Shown here piece after piece: positions 23,431-30,800 of a DNA stretch of 64,000 bases (positions are counted from its first letter, which is position 1; every line of letters begins with the position of its first letter). Both the position numbers and the translations under genes were made by a program. Under the pieces are notes generated by a model that was not told the DNA's origin, made no database searches, and saw only the letters and a program-made list of their open reading frames with translations. Source of the DNA: Curtobacterium sp. UCD-KPL2560 (GTDB lineage: Bacteria; Actinomycetota; Actinomycetes; Actinomycetales; Microbacteriaceae); NCBI RefSeq assembly GCF_001705035.1, contig NZ_MCIG01000005.1, positions 1-64,000 on the forward strand. Reading direction: 5' to 3'.

Positions 23431-23916
23431 ATGGGCCGCTTCGACGACATCGCGATCACCACACTGCAGGGCGAGCAGACCACCTTCGGACAGTTCTCCG
23501 ACCGGGCGGTGCTCGTCGTGAACGTCGCCTCGCGCTGCGGGCTGGCACCCCAGTACGAGCAGCTCGAGGCGCTCCAGGAGACCTACGGCCCGCGGGGCTT
23601 CACGGTGCTCGGCTTCCCGAGCAACCAGTTCCTGCAGGAGCTCGGCTCGTCCGAGGCGATCGAGGAGTACTGCTCCACCACGTGGGGCGTGACCTTCCCG
23701 ATGTCCGAGAAGGTCAAGGTCAACGGCAAGGGTGCCCACCCGCTCTACCAGGCCCTCAAGGAGACCCCGGACGCCTCCGGCAAGGCCGGCCGCGTCGCGT
23801 GGAACTTCGAGAAGTTCCTCGTCGCCCCCGACGGCACCGTCACCCGCTTCCGTCCGACGACGAAGCCCGACGCCCCCGAGGTCGTCGCCGCCATCGAGGC
23901 GGCGCTCCCCGCCTGA
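23431..23916 (+). CDS. Glutathione peroxidase family protein (thioredoxin-dependent type)
   Basis: This 161-residue peroxidase reduces hydroperoxides. Peroxidatic Cys36 sits in VNVASRCGLAPQ, with Gln66 (FPSNQF) and Trp124-Asn125 (VAWNFEKFL) completing the GPx catalytic tetrad. A second Cys81 (EEYCSTTWG) is placed as the resolving Cys of bacterial GPx that use thioredoxin rather than glutathione; actinobacteria generally lack glutathione. No signal peptide, so it is cytoplasmic. It is probably monocistronic, ended by the large hairpin downstream. Confidence 0.92.
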   Translation: MGRFDDIAITTLQGEQTTFGQFSDRAVLVVNVASRCGLAPQYEQLEALQETYGPRGFTVLGFPSNQFLQELGSSEAIEEYCSTTWGVTFPMSEKVKVNGKGAHPLYQALKETPDASGKAGRVAWNFEKFLVAPDGTVTRFRPTTKPDAPEVVAAIEAALPA

Positions 23917-24026
23917 GCCGACCGGGCCGGTCCGGCACGCGCCGGTGCCGGCAGCACCGGTCCGGCACGCGCCGGTCCGTGCAGCACCGGCCCGTCGTGC
24001 GGCGCGCGGACGCGCGCGCGGCACCG

Positions 24027-24082
24027 GACGGGAGGCGCGGGGCACGTGAGCCGGTCGGCTCACGTGCCCCGCGCCTCCCGTC
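24027..24082. terminator. 26-bp perfect inverted repeat built from the GGGAGGCGCGG element
   Basis: Positions 24027-24052 pair perfectly with 24057-24082 around loop GGTC. The arm begins GACGGGAGGCGCGGGGCACG. It lies between the peroxidase gene and coaA on the same strand and probably ends the former. It is one member of a repeated intergenic element found across the window. Confidence 0.75.
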
Positions 24083-24084
24083 TG

Positions 24085-24090: not shown

Positions 24091-24097
24091 CGTGCCC

Positions 24098-25042
24098 ATG
24101 CCGATCACGGAAGCCACCGTCGCGCACCCGACCCCGTTCGTGGAGATCCCGCGCGCGGAGTGGTCGCAGCTCGCGCCGAGGGAGCACCTGTCGCTCACCG
24201 AGACCGAGGTCGTGCAGCTGCGCGGCCTGGGCGACCGGCTCGACATGCAGGAGGTGCAGGAGGTCTACCTCCCGCTGTCCCGCCTGCTGACGCTGTACGC
24301 CGCCGGTGCCCGCGACCTGCACGCCGAGACGAGCCGGTTCCTCGGCGAACGCGCCGGGCGCACGCCGTTCGTCATCGGCGTCGCCGGGTCCGTGGCGGTC
24401 GGCAAGTCCACCGTCGCCCGCCTCCTCCGCGAGCTGACGAAGCGCTGGCCGGACACCCCGCGCGTCGAGCTCGTGACCACCGACGGCTTCCTGTACCCGA
24501 ACGCCGAGCTCGAGCGTCGCGGGATCATGGACCGCAAGGGCTTCCCGGAGTCCTACGACCGACGGGCGCTGCTGCGGTTCGTCAGCCAGGTGAAGAGCGG
24601 CGCGACCGAGGTGCGGGCGCCGTACTACTCGCACCTGGTCTACGACATCGTCCCGGACGCCGAGATCGTGGTGCGGCAGCCCGACGTGCTCATCGTCGAG
24701 GGGCTCAACGTGCTCGCGCCGCCGGTGCACGGTCGTCTGGCGCTGTCCGACCTGTTCGACTTCACGATCTACGTCGACGCGAAGACGAAGGACATCGAGT
24801 CCTGGTACGTCGACCGCTTCCTGGCCCTGCAGCAGGAGGCGTTCGCGAGCCCGGACTCCTTCTTCCACCGGTTCGCGTCGTTGTCCCGCGAGGACGCGGT
24901 GGACACCGCGACGAAGGTGTGGCGGGCGATCAACGAGCCGAACCTGCTCGAGAACGTGCTGCCCACGCGCTCCCGGGCGACCCTCGTGCTCAAGAAGGGC
25001 GCGAACCACAAGGTGAACTCGGTGCTGCTCCGCAAGATCTAG
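24098..25042 (+). CDS. coaA: Pantothenate kinase type I
   Basis: CoaA phosphorylates pantothenate, the first step of CoA synthesis. The 314-residue protein begins with the type I pattern [13 protein letters not shown]. The P-loop [17 protein letters not shown] lies at about residues 91-107, then [26 protein letters not shown] and IVEGLNVL, all family blocks. It ends [14 protein letters not shown]. The ATG at 24098 follows a -10 box by 7 nt and is preferred over a GTG two codons earlier. It converges with glmM across a 62-bp palindrome. Confidence 0.96.
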
Positions 25043-25095
25043 CGGGGCGCGGGGCGCGGCGCCGCGGCATGGCGCCGCCCAGCGCGACGTGCTCC

Positions 25096-25157
25096 CGCAC
25101 AACGGAAAGCAGCTCGCACCACGTGATCACGTGGTGCGAGCTGCTTTCCGTTGTGCG
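25096..25157. repeat. 62-bp perfect palindrome without a loop
   Basis: Positions 25096-25126 are the exact reverse complement of 25127-25157, with no spacer. The arm starts CGCACAACGGAAAGCAGCTC and its centre reads CACGTGATCACGTG. It lies between convergent coaA and glmM and could act as a bidirectional terminator. Its moderate GC content, exact symmetry and lack of loop set it apart from the GC-rich hairpins elsewhere in the window. Confidence 0.9.
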
Positions 25158-25208: not shown

Positions 25209-26585
25209 CTACGCCGCCGCGTCGAGCGTGAGCCGCTCGCGCACGACCGCCGCGAGCTCCTCGGCGACGCGCTGGGCCTCGTCCTGCGACGCCGCCTCGA
25301 CCATCACGCGCACGACGGGCTCGGTGCCCGACGGCCGGAGCAGCACACGCCCGGCGTCCCCGAGCGCAACGGTGGCCGCGGTGACCGCGTCCTGCACGCC
25401 CTGGTCGTCGAGCCCGTGCCGGTCGACGCCCTTCACGTTGAGCAGCACCTGCGGGAACACGGTCATGCACGACGCGAGCTCCTGCAGGGTCTTGCCCGTG
25501 CGTGCCATCTCGGCCACCAGGTGCAGACCCGTGAGGACGCCGTCACCCGTGGTCGCGTAGTCGTTGAAGATGATGTGACCGGACTGCTCGCCACCGAGCG
25601 AGTAGCCGCCCTCGGTCATCCGCTCGAGCACGTAGCGGTCGCCGACACCGGTCTCGAGCACCGTGATGCCCGCGTCCGCCATGGCGCGCTTGAGCCCGAG
25701 GTTCGACATCACGGTCGCGACGAGCGTGTCGTCGACGAGCAAGCCGCGCTCCTGCATCGACAGCGCGAGGATCGCCATGATCTGGTCGCCGTCGATCGCG
25801 TTGCCGGCGGCGTCCACTGCGAGGCACCGGTCGGCGTCGCCGTCGTGCGCGATGCCGACGTCCGCACCGGCCGCGAGCACCGCGGCGGCGAGGTTGTCGA
25901 TGTGCGTCGACCCGACACCGTCGTTGATGTTCATGCCGTCCGGATCGGCACCGATCAGGGTGACCCGGGCCCCGGCGTTGACGAACACCTCGGGCGAGAC
26001 GCCCGCCGCGGCACCGTTCGCGCAGTCGAGCACGACGTGGATGCCGTCGAGCCGGTGCGGGAGCGTGCCGAGCAGGTGCACGACGTAGCGGTCCTCGGCG
26101 TCGGCGAACCGGGTGATCCGGCCGACGTCGGCGCCGGTGGGCGTCGGAGCGGACTGGTCGTGCATGGCCGCTTCGATGCGGTCCTCGACCTCGTCCGGGA
26201 GCTTGCGGCCACCCGTGGCGAAGAACTTGATCCCGTTGTCGGGCGCCGGGTTGTGCGACGCGGAGATCATCACGCCGAAGTCGGCGTCGATGTCCGCGAC
26301 GAGGAACGCGGCAGCGGGGGTGGGGATGACCCCGGCGTCGAGCACGTCGACGCCGGCGGAGGCGAGCCCGGCCGCGACCGCGGCACCGAGGAACTCGCCG
26401 GAGACGCGCGGGTCGCGCGCCAGGACCGCGCGGGGACGCGGTCGGCCGGACGCCCGACGGGCGTCCGCATGGTGTCCGTGCGTGAGCACGGCCGCGCTGG
26501 CCTGGGCGAGACCCAGGGCCAGCGCGGCCGTCAGCTCGCCGTTGGCGAGTCCACGAACACCGTCGGTACCGAACAGACGCGGCAT
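25209..26585 (-). CDS. glmM: Phosphoglucosamine mutase
   Basis: GlmM interconverts glucosamine-6-phosphate and glucosamine-1-phosphate on the way to UDP-GlcNAc, next after GlmS. The 458-residue protein starts [15 protein letters not shown], carries the phosphoserine loop [16 protein letters not shown] near residue 105, the metal loop AHDGDADRC, the sugar-binding GGEQSGHI, and the phosphate-binding [14 protein letters not shown] near the end. A 30-residue insert around the [17 protein letters not shown] stretch is normal for the family. It lies 22 bp after rpsI and probably shares its transcript. Confidence 0.96.
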
Positions 26586-27129: not shown

Positions 27130-27576
27130 CTACTGTGCGACCTGGTCGAAGGTGTACGCCTTGGGCTGCTGCGCGGCGTGCGGGTGCTCGGGGCCGGCGT
27201 AGACCTTGAGCTTCTTGAGCTGCTCACGGCCGAGCGTGTTCTTCGGCAGCATGCCGCGGATCGCCTTCTCGACGGCGCGGGTGGGGTGCTTCTCGAGCAT
27301 CTCCGGGTAGGAGGTCGCCGTGAGGCCGCCCGGGTAGCCCGAGTGACGGTAGTAGACCTTCTTGGCGAGCTTGGAGCCGGTGAGGGCGACCTTGTCCGCG
27401 TTCACGATGATGACGAAGTCACCCATGTCCATGTGCTGGGCGAAGGTGGCCTTGTGCTTGCCGCGCAGGAGCGCCGCGGCGTGGGTGGCGAGACGGCCGA
27501 GGACGACGTCGGCTGCGTCGATGACGATCCAGTCGTGCTGGACGTCTGCCGGCTTCGGGGAGAACGTACGAGTCAC
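27130..27576 (-). CDS. rplM: 50S ribosomal protein uL13
   Basis: uL13 of 148 residues is an early-assembly 23S rRNA-binding protein. It shows [49 protein letters not shown] and [13 protein letters not shown]. The GTG start at 27576 ([13 protein letters not shown]) matches the family N-terminus; no strong Shine-Dalgarno sequence is visible. It heads rplM-rpsI-glmM from a promoter at 27715-27743. Confidence 0.96.
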
Positions 27577-27743: not shown

Positions 27744-27755
27744 ACGCTCGCCACG

Positions 27756-27801
27756 ACGGACGGGAGGCGCGGTGCCGGCCGGCACCGCGCCTCCCGTCCG
27801 T
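27756..27801 (-). terminator. 46-bp palindrome of the GGGAGGCGCGG element after the nuclease gene
   Basis: A 21-bp perfect stem (27756-27776 with 27781-27801) flanks GGCC, itself palindromic, so the whole 46 bp is a perfect palindrome. The arm reads ACGGACGGGAGGCGCGGTGC. It starts 14 bp beyond the nuclease stop and abuts the rplM promoter. Confidence 0.8.
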
Positions 27802-27814
27802 GGGACCCACCGGA

Positions 27815-30800
27815 TCAGGCGGTGCGCACCTGCCGACGACGTCGTGCGACGAGCACCCCGGCCCCTGCGGTCAGCAGGAGCAGGGCCGCCGCGAGGCCGC
27901 CGCCGAGCTCGGCGCCGGTGAAGGCGAGCGTGCCCGTCGCGGGGTCGACGACCCGGATCGGCGTCCAGCCGACCAGCGAGCCGTCCGCCGCGGTCACGGC
28001 GAGGCGGTGCGCCCCGGCGGTCGTGCCGGCCGGGATCGTGACCCGGACGGTGCCGTCCGCGCGGACCGTGGCGGTCGCGAGGAGCACCGGGTCGGAGTAC
28101 AGCCAGACCGCGATCCGCTCGCCGGCGCGGGCGGTGCCGACGCCGACCGTGATCGTCTCCCCGGCACGCACGGTCGCCGGGGCGGTCACGCCGCCGCGGA
28201 CCGCGTCGGTCAGCGTCGGTGCGGTCGGAGCGACCGGTGACGGTCCGGTGCCGGGACCGCTGCCTGCGCCCGTGCCGTTGCCGCCGGTGCCGGTGCCGGT
28301 GCCGGGCGTGCCGCCGGCGCCGGGCGTCCCGCTGCCGGAGGCCACGTCGAACCCGACGAGGATCGGGTCGTGGTCGCTCGCTCGGTAGACGTCGTCGCGG
28401 TACAGGTCGGTGACGTTGTAGTCGTAGCGGCTGTACTCCAGACCGACCGACTCCACCGAGTTGATGTTCCAGATGTCCACGCCGGTGACGTCCGCGAGTG
28501 CCGCGGGTGAAGCGAGCACGTGGTCGAGCGACCCGCTCAGGCCGCCGAAGACGTACGACCACTCCGAGGCGTCGAGCGCCGGGCCGAGGTCGGTGTAGCC
28601 GGCCTCACGGAGGACGACCATCGGGTCCTCCTGGCTGTAGGCGTTGAAGTCACCGAGCATGAACACCCGGTCGGTGCCGTACTTCGCCTGCTCCGTGGTC
28701 GAGAACCCGGCGAGCGCCTTCGCCTGCGCCACGCGCGACGCGTTCGACGCACCCTGTCCGTCGCCGGTGTCGGCGTCCGCACCCGAGCCGGACCCCTTCG
28801 ACTTGAAGTGGTTCGCGATCACCAGGAAGTCGTCGTCCGCGGTGCCGCCGACCGGACGGAAGGCGTCGGCGACGGGCTGGCGGGCGTTCACGAAGGCGGG
28901 GTCGTCGAGGATCGTCGACTCCCCGACCGGCGCGACGCGGTCCTGCTTGTAGATCAGTGCGAGGCGGATGACGTCCTCGCTCGCGGGCAGCTTCGCGGGC
29001 GACTTCACGTACGCCCAGGTGTCCTGCCCGGTGGCGGCGTTGAGGGCGGCGACGAGCGTGCCCACCGCGGCGTCGCGGTCACGGCCGAAGCGGGCCGAGT
29101 TCTCGATCTCCTCGAGCGAGACGACGTCGGCGCCGAGGCCGTTGATCGCCTTGACGATCTTGACCTGCTGGCGGGCCAGGTCGTCGGCGTTCGCGGCACC
29201 GCGGGCGTCGCAGCCGCCGCGGACGGTCACGGGGTCGCCGTCACGGTCCGTGTAGTACGTGCAGCCGGTGAGCTGGTCGCCCGTGGTCGGGAAGTAGTTG
29301 AGCACGTTGAAGCCGGCGAGCTCGAGGTCGCCTCCGACCTGCGCGGGCGCCGCGGTGCGCACGTTCGAGAACGACGCCGGCAGGGTCGCCACCGGGGTCG
29401 CTCCCGTGATCGGCGACGTCGGCTGGAACTTCCACGTGTCGTTGCGGTAGTCGAGGACGACCGGCTTCGAGAAGGTCGCGGCGGCGCCGACCGTGACCGG
29501 GCCCTGGGTGAGCCAGGACACCGGGATCGACTGGTTCGCCGCACTGAGGAAGTTCGTGCTCGCGCCGTCGTCGAGCACCACCTTCCGTGCGGCGTTGTCC
29601 GCTGCGACCGCGGCGGCCTCGGCGCTGCCCGGTCGGGCGACCTCCGTCGGCTGGATCAGCCGCTTCGTCCCCGAGGCGAGCACGACCTCGCCGTACTGGT
29701 TCGTCGTGAAGGTGTCGGCGACCGTGTAGCTGCCCTGCGGTGCGAGGAGCATGCTCTCGAGCGACTCGCGCTGTGCGTCGGTGCGCGGGAACGCGAGCGT
29801 GGCCGGCACCGGCTGCGCGACGCCGGTCGCGGGGAGCCGCACCAGGTCGGCGGTCGACGCGACCGTGAGCTCGGTGAGGCCGTTGAACTCGGACACCTCG
29901 CCGGTCAGCCGGACGGCGTCGCCGATCGCGACGCTGCCGACCGTCGCGGCCGAGAACACGAACACGGCGTCGGACGCGGTGTGCGTGGTCAGGTCGAGCG
30001 CGCCGCCCGTGCCGGCCGTCTGGATCGTGTAGCCGTTCAGCCCGCCGGTCGGGTACACCGCCGTGACGACGCCCTCGGTGGTCACCCGCTTGCCCGCGTA
30101 CGGCGACGCCGCCCCGGTGCCCTGCAGCTGCGCGACGGTGACCTGCTCGGCCGGTGTCGTCGGCGTACCGGGGTCCGGTGTGCCGGTGCCGGGCGTCCCG
30201 GTACCCGGCGTTCCGCCGCCGCTCGTCTGGCCCGCACTGTTCCGCGGCGTCGGCGTGGTCGTCTCGACGAAGTCCGCGCCGTTGTCGTCGGTGTCGGTCG
30301 TCCCCGTCCGGGTGAGGGCGTTCGGCACCGCGTTGGTACCGGTGACCGGGCGCACCGTGCGCTCGAAGGTGTTGGACGCGCCGTACCCGAGCAGGTCCAC
30401 GACACCCGGGGTGCCGGTCGCGACGGCGCCGGCCGGCAGCGTCAGCGGTGCGGTGCGGTCGGAGAGGGCGAGCGTCCCCGTGGTGCCGGACACGTTCAGC
30501 GAGACGGTGTCGTCGGGCGTCGGCAGGTCGGCGCCGACGGGCGTCGCACCACCGTTGCCCGGCATCGCGACGAGGAACGTCCCACCGGCGGGCACGGTCC
30601 CCTCGAGCGCGCTCGCGGTGAAGCTCCCGGTGCCGGCCGCGGGGCGGTACTGCAGCGACCACCCGGCCAGGGACACCGGTGACGCCGTGGGGTTCGCGAT
30701 CTCGACGAACTTGCCGTTGTACGGGGCGTTCGCGCTGCCGCCCTTCAGGTACGCCTCGCCGATCACCAGACCGGTGCCGGCGGGATCCGCCAGCGCGGAC

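Follow-up and report, generated by a model that had tools for sequence, protein, structure and literature searches.

A dispersed family of long palindromes behind Curtobacterium genes and its putative role as a bidirectional terminator

Why should a long, perfect palindrome persist between two convergent genes? The question is raised by the gap between coaA and glmM in the stretch of 64,000 nucleotides from Curtobacterium sp. UCD-KPL2560 analyzed here (the window), in which positions 25096–25157 are, as the original prediction had it, an exact palindrome with no spacer, identical to its own reverse complement over 31 bp per arm. The element lies 53 bp past the coaA stop codon and 51 bp ahead of the end of glmM, and its GC content is 61%, compared with 71% for the window; after it, the longest near-palindromes in the window reach 29 bp per arm, with a mismatch (Table 1). 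A chance origin is excluded by the length of the arms together with their repetition across the genome. SbcD is part of a nuclease that attacks long palindromes, and as an SbcD homologue scores above the curated cut-off in all 60 of the Curtobacterium genomes sampled, the survival of the palindrome is not owed to the absence of this protein.

The reading that we favor, and that we regard as fairly probable, is that the palindrome belongs to a REP-like repeat, dispersed and specific to the genus, that serves as a bidirectional terminator, is retained for that reason and spreads by some form of copying, where both the termination and the spread are what we infer. According to this reading, the RNA of either strand would fold into a hairpin, the inner GC-rich part of which, followed by the U-richer outer arm, would act as an intrinsic terminator, such that a single element would end transcription of both coaA and glmM. 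A copying mechanism would spread copies into 3′ intergenic DNA, selection would retain those that are helpful while deletion would clear the others, and hence palindromes of unlike sequence would come to replace one another at the same site between species.

Table 1. Palindromic features and flanking genes in the window
Feature	Position	Strand	Details
Family-A palindrome	25096..25157	.	28-bp arms and 6-base loop, the loop here itself palindromic, giving 31+31
coaA, type I pantothenate kinase	24092..25042	+	TIGR00554 (NCBIfam), 442 bits; converges on the palindrome
glmM, phosphoglucosamine mutase	25209..26585	-	TIGR01455 (NCBIfam), 546 bits; converges on the palindrome
Flanking half-site	25080..25095	-	GCGCGACGTGCTC at 25082-25094; third copy of the inner arm
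Family-B palindrome	24025..24084	.	one mismatch in arms of 29 bp, loop of 2 bases; between coaA and the gene with its end at 23916
Family-B palindrome	27754..27803	.	one mismatch in arms of 25 bp, no loop; between genes with end at 27576 and start at 27815 (gene-finder coordinates)

Copy number and taxonomic spread

The repeat to which the palindrome belongs, here called family A, is multi-copy, extragenic, biased to the 3′ ends of genes, structurally conserved and slow to change. The genome that contains the window is a draft assembly (3,480,487 bases in 156 contigs), and an assembly error was rejected as the source of the palindrome, which recurs between the same two genes, with 1 of its 62 bases changed, in G043, a genome of the same species in a single contig. 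The arm, for its part, is not unique, being multi-copy in its own genome and common to the relatives. A first search of this genome with the region returned 93 matches, and a covariance model built from 44 aligned copies (28 pairs and a 6-base loop) returned at least 136, corresponding to at least 68 places, each matched in both directions and one truncated where its contig ends. In G043, the same model found at least 149 matches, or at least 74 places and one fragment; a separate count of arms in G043 agrees with 74 palindromes. All copy numbers from the covariance-model searches, in these two genomes and in the other samples, are lower bounds.

Family A is present in 59 of the 60 Curtobacterium genomes sampled. 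The one genome with no match in the covariance-model search, G041, is the most divergent member of the genus by coaA and has the longest branch on the coaA-glmM tree. Scanning named genomes by pattern yielded 21 stretches, of which 17 are from Curtobacterium and 4 from Microbacteriaceae bacterium PS02333, and at E 1e-4 the family was found in 15 of 299 Microbacteriaceae genomes, of which 6 are Curtobacterium and the other 9 score lower. Four loci were read outside Curtobacterium, and two of them, in G339 and (weakly) in G301, resemble the family-A arm layout. These two loci (L107 and L109, respectively) come from another genus of Microbacteriaceae, with several matches in each of the two genomes; a 9-bp motif repeated at a distance of 19 bp agrees at 8 of 9 positions in the G339 palindrome and at 6 of 9 in that of G301.

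No Rfam family reaches its gathering score within the window, and a 78-bp query had no match at E 0.001 among 72,556 plasmid and 50,697 phage records. Among the matches listed in our literature search, no paper deals with repeats of this kind in either Curtobacterium or other Microbacteriaceae.

Anatomy, placement and divergence of the copies

In the 44-copy alignment, the family-A arm consists of CGCACAAC, a part that is paired but variable, AGCA, two variable bases, TCGC, a purine and CCACG, such that conserved blocks alternate with positions that pair but vary, and the loop is variable. The CACGTGATCACGTG centre that had been highlighted is correct for the window copy, but is not a trait of the family, as the middle six columns form the variable loop; the spacer-free perfection is therefore a property of the window copy and some others. 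Overall, 92.5% of the cells are paired, with 11 pairs showing changes on both sides, and 72 cells are double-changed, compared with 31 in shuffles (none of 500 as high), an excess that kinship among the copies can also produce without structure, while alignments that are slid drop to 26–49% paired. Between the draft genome and G043, there is 1 double-sided arm change against 56 single-sided changes, and thus the covariation is an older product.

Gene calls for the placement analysis came from a home-made, codon-based gene finder. None of the 141 copies placed lies inside a gene (0 of 67 in the draft genome, where the 68th copy was left out, and 0 of 74 in G043), with 21 of the 67 having only one neighboring gene in the stretch read. 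In G043, the copies occupy 52 distinct gaps, of which 35 are convergent, 15 are tandem and 2 are divergent; the corresponding numbers for the draft genome are 24, 9 and 2. The background was taken from 800 kb of six other Curtobacterium genomes, where gaps of 90 bp or more number 53 convergent, 162 tandem and 87 divergent (n = 302; p 1.5e-12 against G043). Of the copies in tandem orientation in G043, 15 of 17 are closer to the upstream stop codon.

The composition of the arms is asymmetric: over the 141 copies, A outnumbers T by 1070 to 166 in the 5′ arms, and T outnumbers A by 1060 to 163 in the 3′ arms. Within the 3′ arm, T accounts for 36% of the 12 outermost bases and for 6% of the 12 that follow. 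This pattern fits a hairpin in which the outer arm would serve as the U-rich part in both directions. Bidirectional intrinsic terminators lie between convergent genes, form a hairpin on both strands, and have A-rich 5′ and T-rich 3′ arms; family A resembles them in its place, in its predicted hairpin on both strands and in the base composition of its arms, and differs from them in being a sequence family of approximately 70 copies. When 102 nt were folded as RNA, the energy was −75 kcal/mol for one strand and −80 kcal/mol for the other. There is no U-tract after the hairpin, the T's sitting within the stem instead, and a simple terminator and promoter scan made no call at the palindrome.

With family A masked, another hairpin (score of at least 12) was found in 16 of 35 convergent gaps in G043 and 12 of 24 in the draft genome, whereas in comparison gaps of at least 60 bp in six other Curtobacterium genomes the counts were 53 of 70 for convergent and 5 of 107 for divergent gaps. 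Other hairpins are thus rarer in the convergent gaps that hold family A (p 0.004 for G043, p 0.02 for the draft genome). Transcription from both sides probably terminates at the palindrome.

Each of the 67 readable copies of the draft genome pairs with a G043 copy (63 distinct copies, 56 pairings unambiguous). Rates of change were compared over 34 single-copy loci, chosen by setting aside array contigs, pairs that were ambiguous and copies with fewer than two neighboring genes. At these loci, the palindromes differ at 25 of 2108 positions (1.2%), compared with 262 of 8599 (3.05%) in the intergenic flanks and 72 of 11107 in the genes, and there is 1 indel event in the palindromes against 88 in the intergenic flanks. 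The expectation that survival points to a function is borne out to the extent that the palindromes change more slowly than their flanks despite the SbcD homologue, and the overall interpretation is partly supported. Hairpin-templated repair or conversion among copies could also slow divergence, without selection.

Eleven of the 74 G043 copies lack a partner in the draft genome, 6 of them in arrays and 5 isolated. The isolated copies (at 664418, 820018, 1491938, 1796437 and 2307850 of contig C1) are possible presence/absence differences within the species; because their counterpart genome is a 156-contig draft, absence and an assembly gap are not separable for these five. Of the three roles that had been proposed, a terminator for convergent genes and a mobile palindromic unit both fit the data, the third being a protein-binding site; the comparison of the two same-species genomes gave no clear case of recent movement.

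The arms also contain finer regularities. A half-site (at least 13 of 17 positions matching) adjoins 42 of the 67 copies in the draft genome and 42 of the 74 in G043, or 84 of 141 in total; the one in the window matches at 14 of 17, and none of 141 shuffled right flanks reaches the threshold. Within the arm of the window copy, a 9-bp motif recurs at 19 bp with 8 of 9 positions identical (11 of 1000 shuffles as high). These features are what would be expected if the palindrome were a protein-binding site, with two 9-bp near-copies 19 bp apart in each arm and hence four phased candidate sites per palindrome, to which the half-site would often add a fifth. The lag-19 repeat is present, at 8 or 9 of 9 positions, in 7 of 15 chosen representative arms (A, A4, D, D2, G, one from G052 and one from G339 of the other genus; 0–38 of 1000 shuffles as high), and the conserved blocks are set apart by the pairing-but-variable positions. 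However, the lag lacks significance in the remaining 8 arms (A2, A3, B, C, E, F, H and G301), with those of C and G301 reaching only 6 of 9, the motif differs among palindromes at the same site, and the lag can be a relic of the way the arm originated. We consider binding by a protein an improbable explanation.

Palindrome types at orthologous gaps

We examined the coaA-glmM gap in 59 of the 60 genomes, leaving out G009, which has no full coaA match. With an ungapped finder, a hairpin scores at least 15 in 51 of the 59 and at least 11 in 54. The five that fall below 11 are G012 and G058, which are D-type by pattern with a short inner stem only, G022, a degenerate F, G051, where the gap is only 12–13 bases, and G041. 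In the last of these (locus L149), the convergent coaA and glmM stop codons abut, with zero intergenic bases. The lack of a gap in G041 and the 12–13 bases in G051 imply that no terminator is required between coaA and glmM in these genomes.

The hairpins of the 59 genomes sort into about eight sequence types, with two types side by side in the gaps of G057 and G008. Types here and at pheA and ribH were assigned by pattern and eye, and some of them may be distantly related to one another, namely D to D2, and A, G and H among themselves. Near neighbors with unlike types include the pairs G044/G039, G048/G059, G013/G042 and G005/G011. Treated as a label with 12 states (including “none” and two mixtures), the coaA-glmM type requires at least 31 changes on the 59-genome tree, where the minimum possible is 11, the shuffled mean is 37.2 and 0 of 200 shuffles are as low, although this tree is built from the two flanking genes only and leaves 21 of its 56 inner branches open, and interspecies recombination can make the count of 31 too high. 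The number of changes, taken together with the shuffles, indicates partial inheritance of the type along with frequent replacement.

Two further gaps were read in 30 genomes each. At pheA, 5 genomes have an A-type palindrome, 4 a clear E-type (with 3 more partial) and 2 a G-type (one weak); 11 have gaps of 0–55 bp without any hairpin of more than 15-bp arms, and 5 genomes were left unassigned. At ribH, we assigned 7 A-type, 5 G-type, 2 C-type and 2 D2-type palindromes; G003 and G006 carry apparent C-type remnants, 8 genomes have no assignable long palindrome, and G017, G027, G037 and G040 have a different neighbor gene and an unassigned hairpin with 18–30-bp arms. An ordinary terminator was found by pattern at ribH in 25 of the 30 genomes, with its own sequence kept across species, and all 16 genomes with an assigned palindrome retain this local terminator further on, so that a palindrome can be an add-on to a terminator. 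Losses of palindromes seem to occur, and the palindrome is not indispensable, as G041 has no coaA-glmM gap and the short gaps at pheA are palindrome-free.

These same gaps bear on a rival account, in which the palindrome is a selfish repeat with no host function that inserts where it does no harm, behind genes, and is seen wherever it is tolerated. Such a repeat would fit the additional palindromes that accompany an ordinary terminator at ribH, the 11 of 30 pheA gaps that do without a long palindrome, the missing gap of G041 and the local arrays, whose copy number is unlike between two same-species genomes. Against it stand the slower substitution and near absence of indels relative to the flanks, the A/T asymmetry of the arms and the reduced number of other hairpins in the gaps that hold family A. 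We judge a purely selfish repeat to be rather unlikely, and retain a selected bidirectional terminator as the preferred reading.

Palindromes other than family A are likewise found beyond these gaps. In a sample of six genomes away from coaA, for example, G015 has types C and E, G001 has F, G006 has D, G034 has D2 and G040 has G. Family B, the consensus of which is GACGGACGGGAGGCGCGGTGCCAGC and its mirror, occupies (allowing up to 3 mismatches) 90 places in the draft genome. Four other Curtobacterium genomes have 75–97 places each, the divergent genomes G052 and G041 have 6 and 1, respectively, and the remaining 292 of the 299 Microbacteriaceae genomes have none.

Relation to known repeats and to possible routes of spread

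REP sequences are described, in the available text of PMC1525189, as extragenic, palindromic, 21–65 bases long and often between convergent genes. Family A, which is repeated, palindromic, 62 bp long, extragenic and biased to gene 3′ ends and convergent gaps, shares these properties with the REPs, palindromic units and BIMEs of enterobacteria and pseudomonads, and is a REP-like repeat in the broad sense. It departs from them in its near-perfect stem of 28–31 bp, in the several sequence types that share one site across Curtobacterium species, and in the lack of a Y1 transposase (PF01797) in the Curtobacterium sample.

A closer parallel might be sought in REPINs, which the accessible part of PMC8049555 describes as nonautonomous, present in many copies per genome and in most strains, built of two inverted arms, found locally in tandem and copied by RAYT transposases. 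Family A resembles these elements in its many copies, its presence in most genomes, its inverted arms and its local arrays. A classical REPIN moved by a RAYT (Y1 HUH) transposase would also account for the size, palindromy, extragenic place and convergent bias that it has in common with REPs. Against this, Y1_Tnp (PF01797) was found in 0 of 60 Curtobacterium genomes, in a search where 5 of 14 controls were positive, and the element is one long, near-perfect hairpin. Furthermore, single arms are not in surplus in G043 at up to 3 mismatches, where there are 147 arm matches for 74 palindromes and the approximately 100 listed places checked by eye all lie within palindromes. The foot of a REPIN hairpin carries a GTAG-type tetranucleotide, whereas family-A arms begin with CGCACAA and GTAG is absent from the consensus. 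A REPIN system with a RAYT is not supported as far as tested, and we regard it as most improbable.

We can only tentatively suggest, as a conjecture that we hold to be possible though short of probable, that a RAYT-free system of Curtobacterium copies several kinds of symmetric hairpins of approximately 60 bp behind genes, and that hairpins of unlike sequence and shared layout would then swap as exchangeable terminators; in several of the hairpins, this layout includes a pair of 9-bp motifs at a distance of 19 bp within each arm. What is new here is the genus-wide load of long palindromes with no known mobiliser, in which dozens of long, near-perfect palindromes per genome coexist with SbcD and with no RAYT found, and the swapping of palindromes of unlike sequence at fixed gene ends. 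Such swapping at one orthologous gap makes both the route of hairpin copying and the idea of terminators as interchangeable parts testable.

Other classes of repeat were considered as well. Neisserial DNA uptake sequences are repeated, form inverted pairs that act as terminators at gene ends, and exist in species-specific versions; family A is similarly repeated, with inverted arms at gene ends and species-specific versions, but its arms are not found singly and its unit is 62 bp. A MITE of an insertion sequence is not supported, as G043 shows no surplus of arms over palindromes at up to 3 mismatches. A CRISPR repeat was rejected, most copies standing alone and the spacers of the arrays being themselves repeated (by eye). 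No CRISPR is reported in the available sections of the genome paper (PMC5054313).

Some copies of family A do stand in arrays, with steps of approximately 130–240 bp and, in places, in alternation with a second palindrome type (both by eye). Tandem arrays are found at loci L014, L028, L032 and L040, some of them alternating with other repeats, and array copy number differs within the species, with 4 copies on contig C24 of the draft genome and 6 and a fragment at its G043 counterpart. Finally, 17 of the 68 copies in the draft genome have a contig end no more than 300 bp away, where approximately 2 would be expected, at 12 contig ends (C10, C20, C27, C69, C84, C103, C108, C127, C139, C148, C150 and C153); short-read assembly tends to break at family-A copies.
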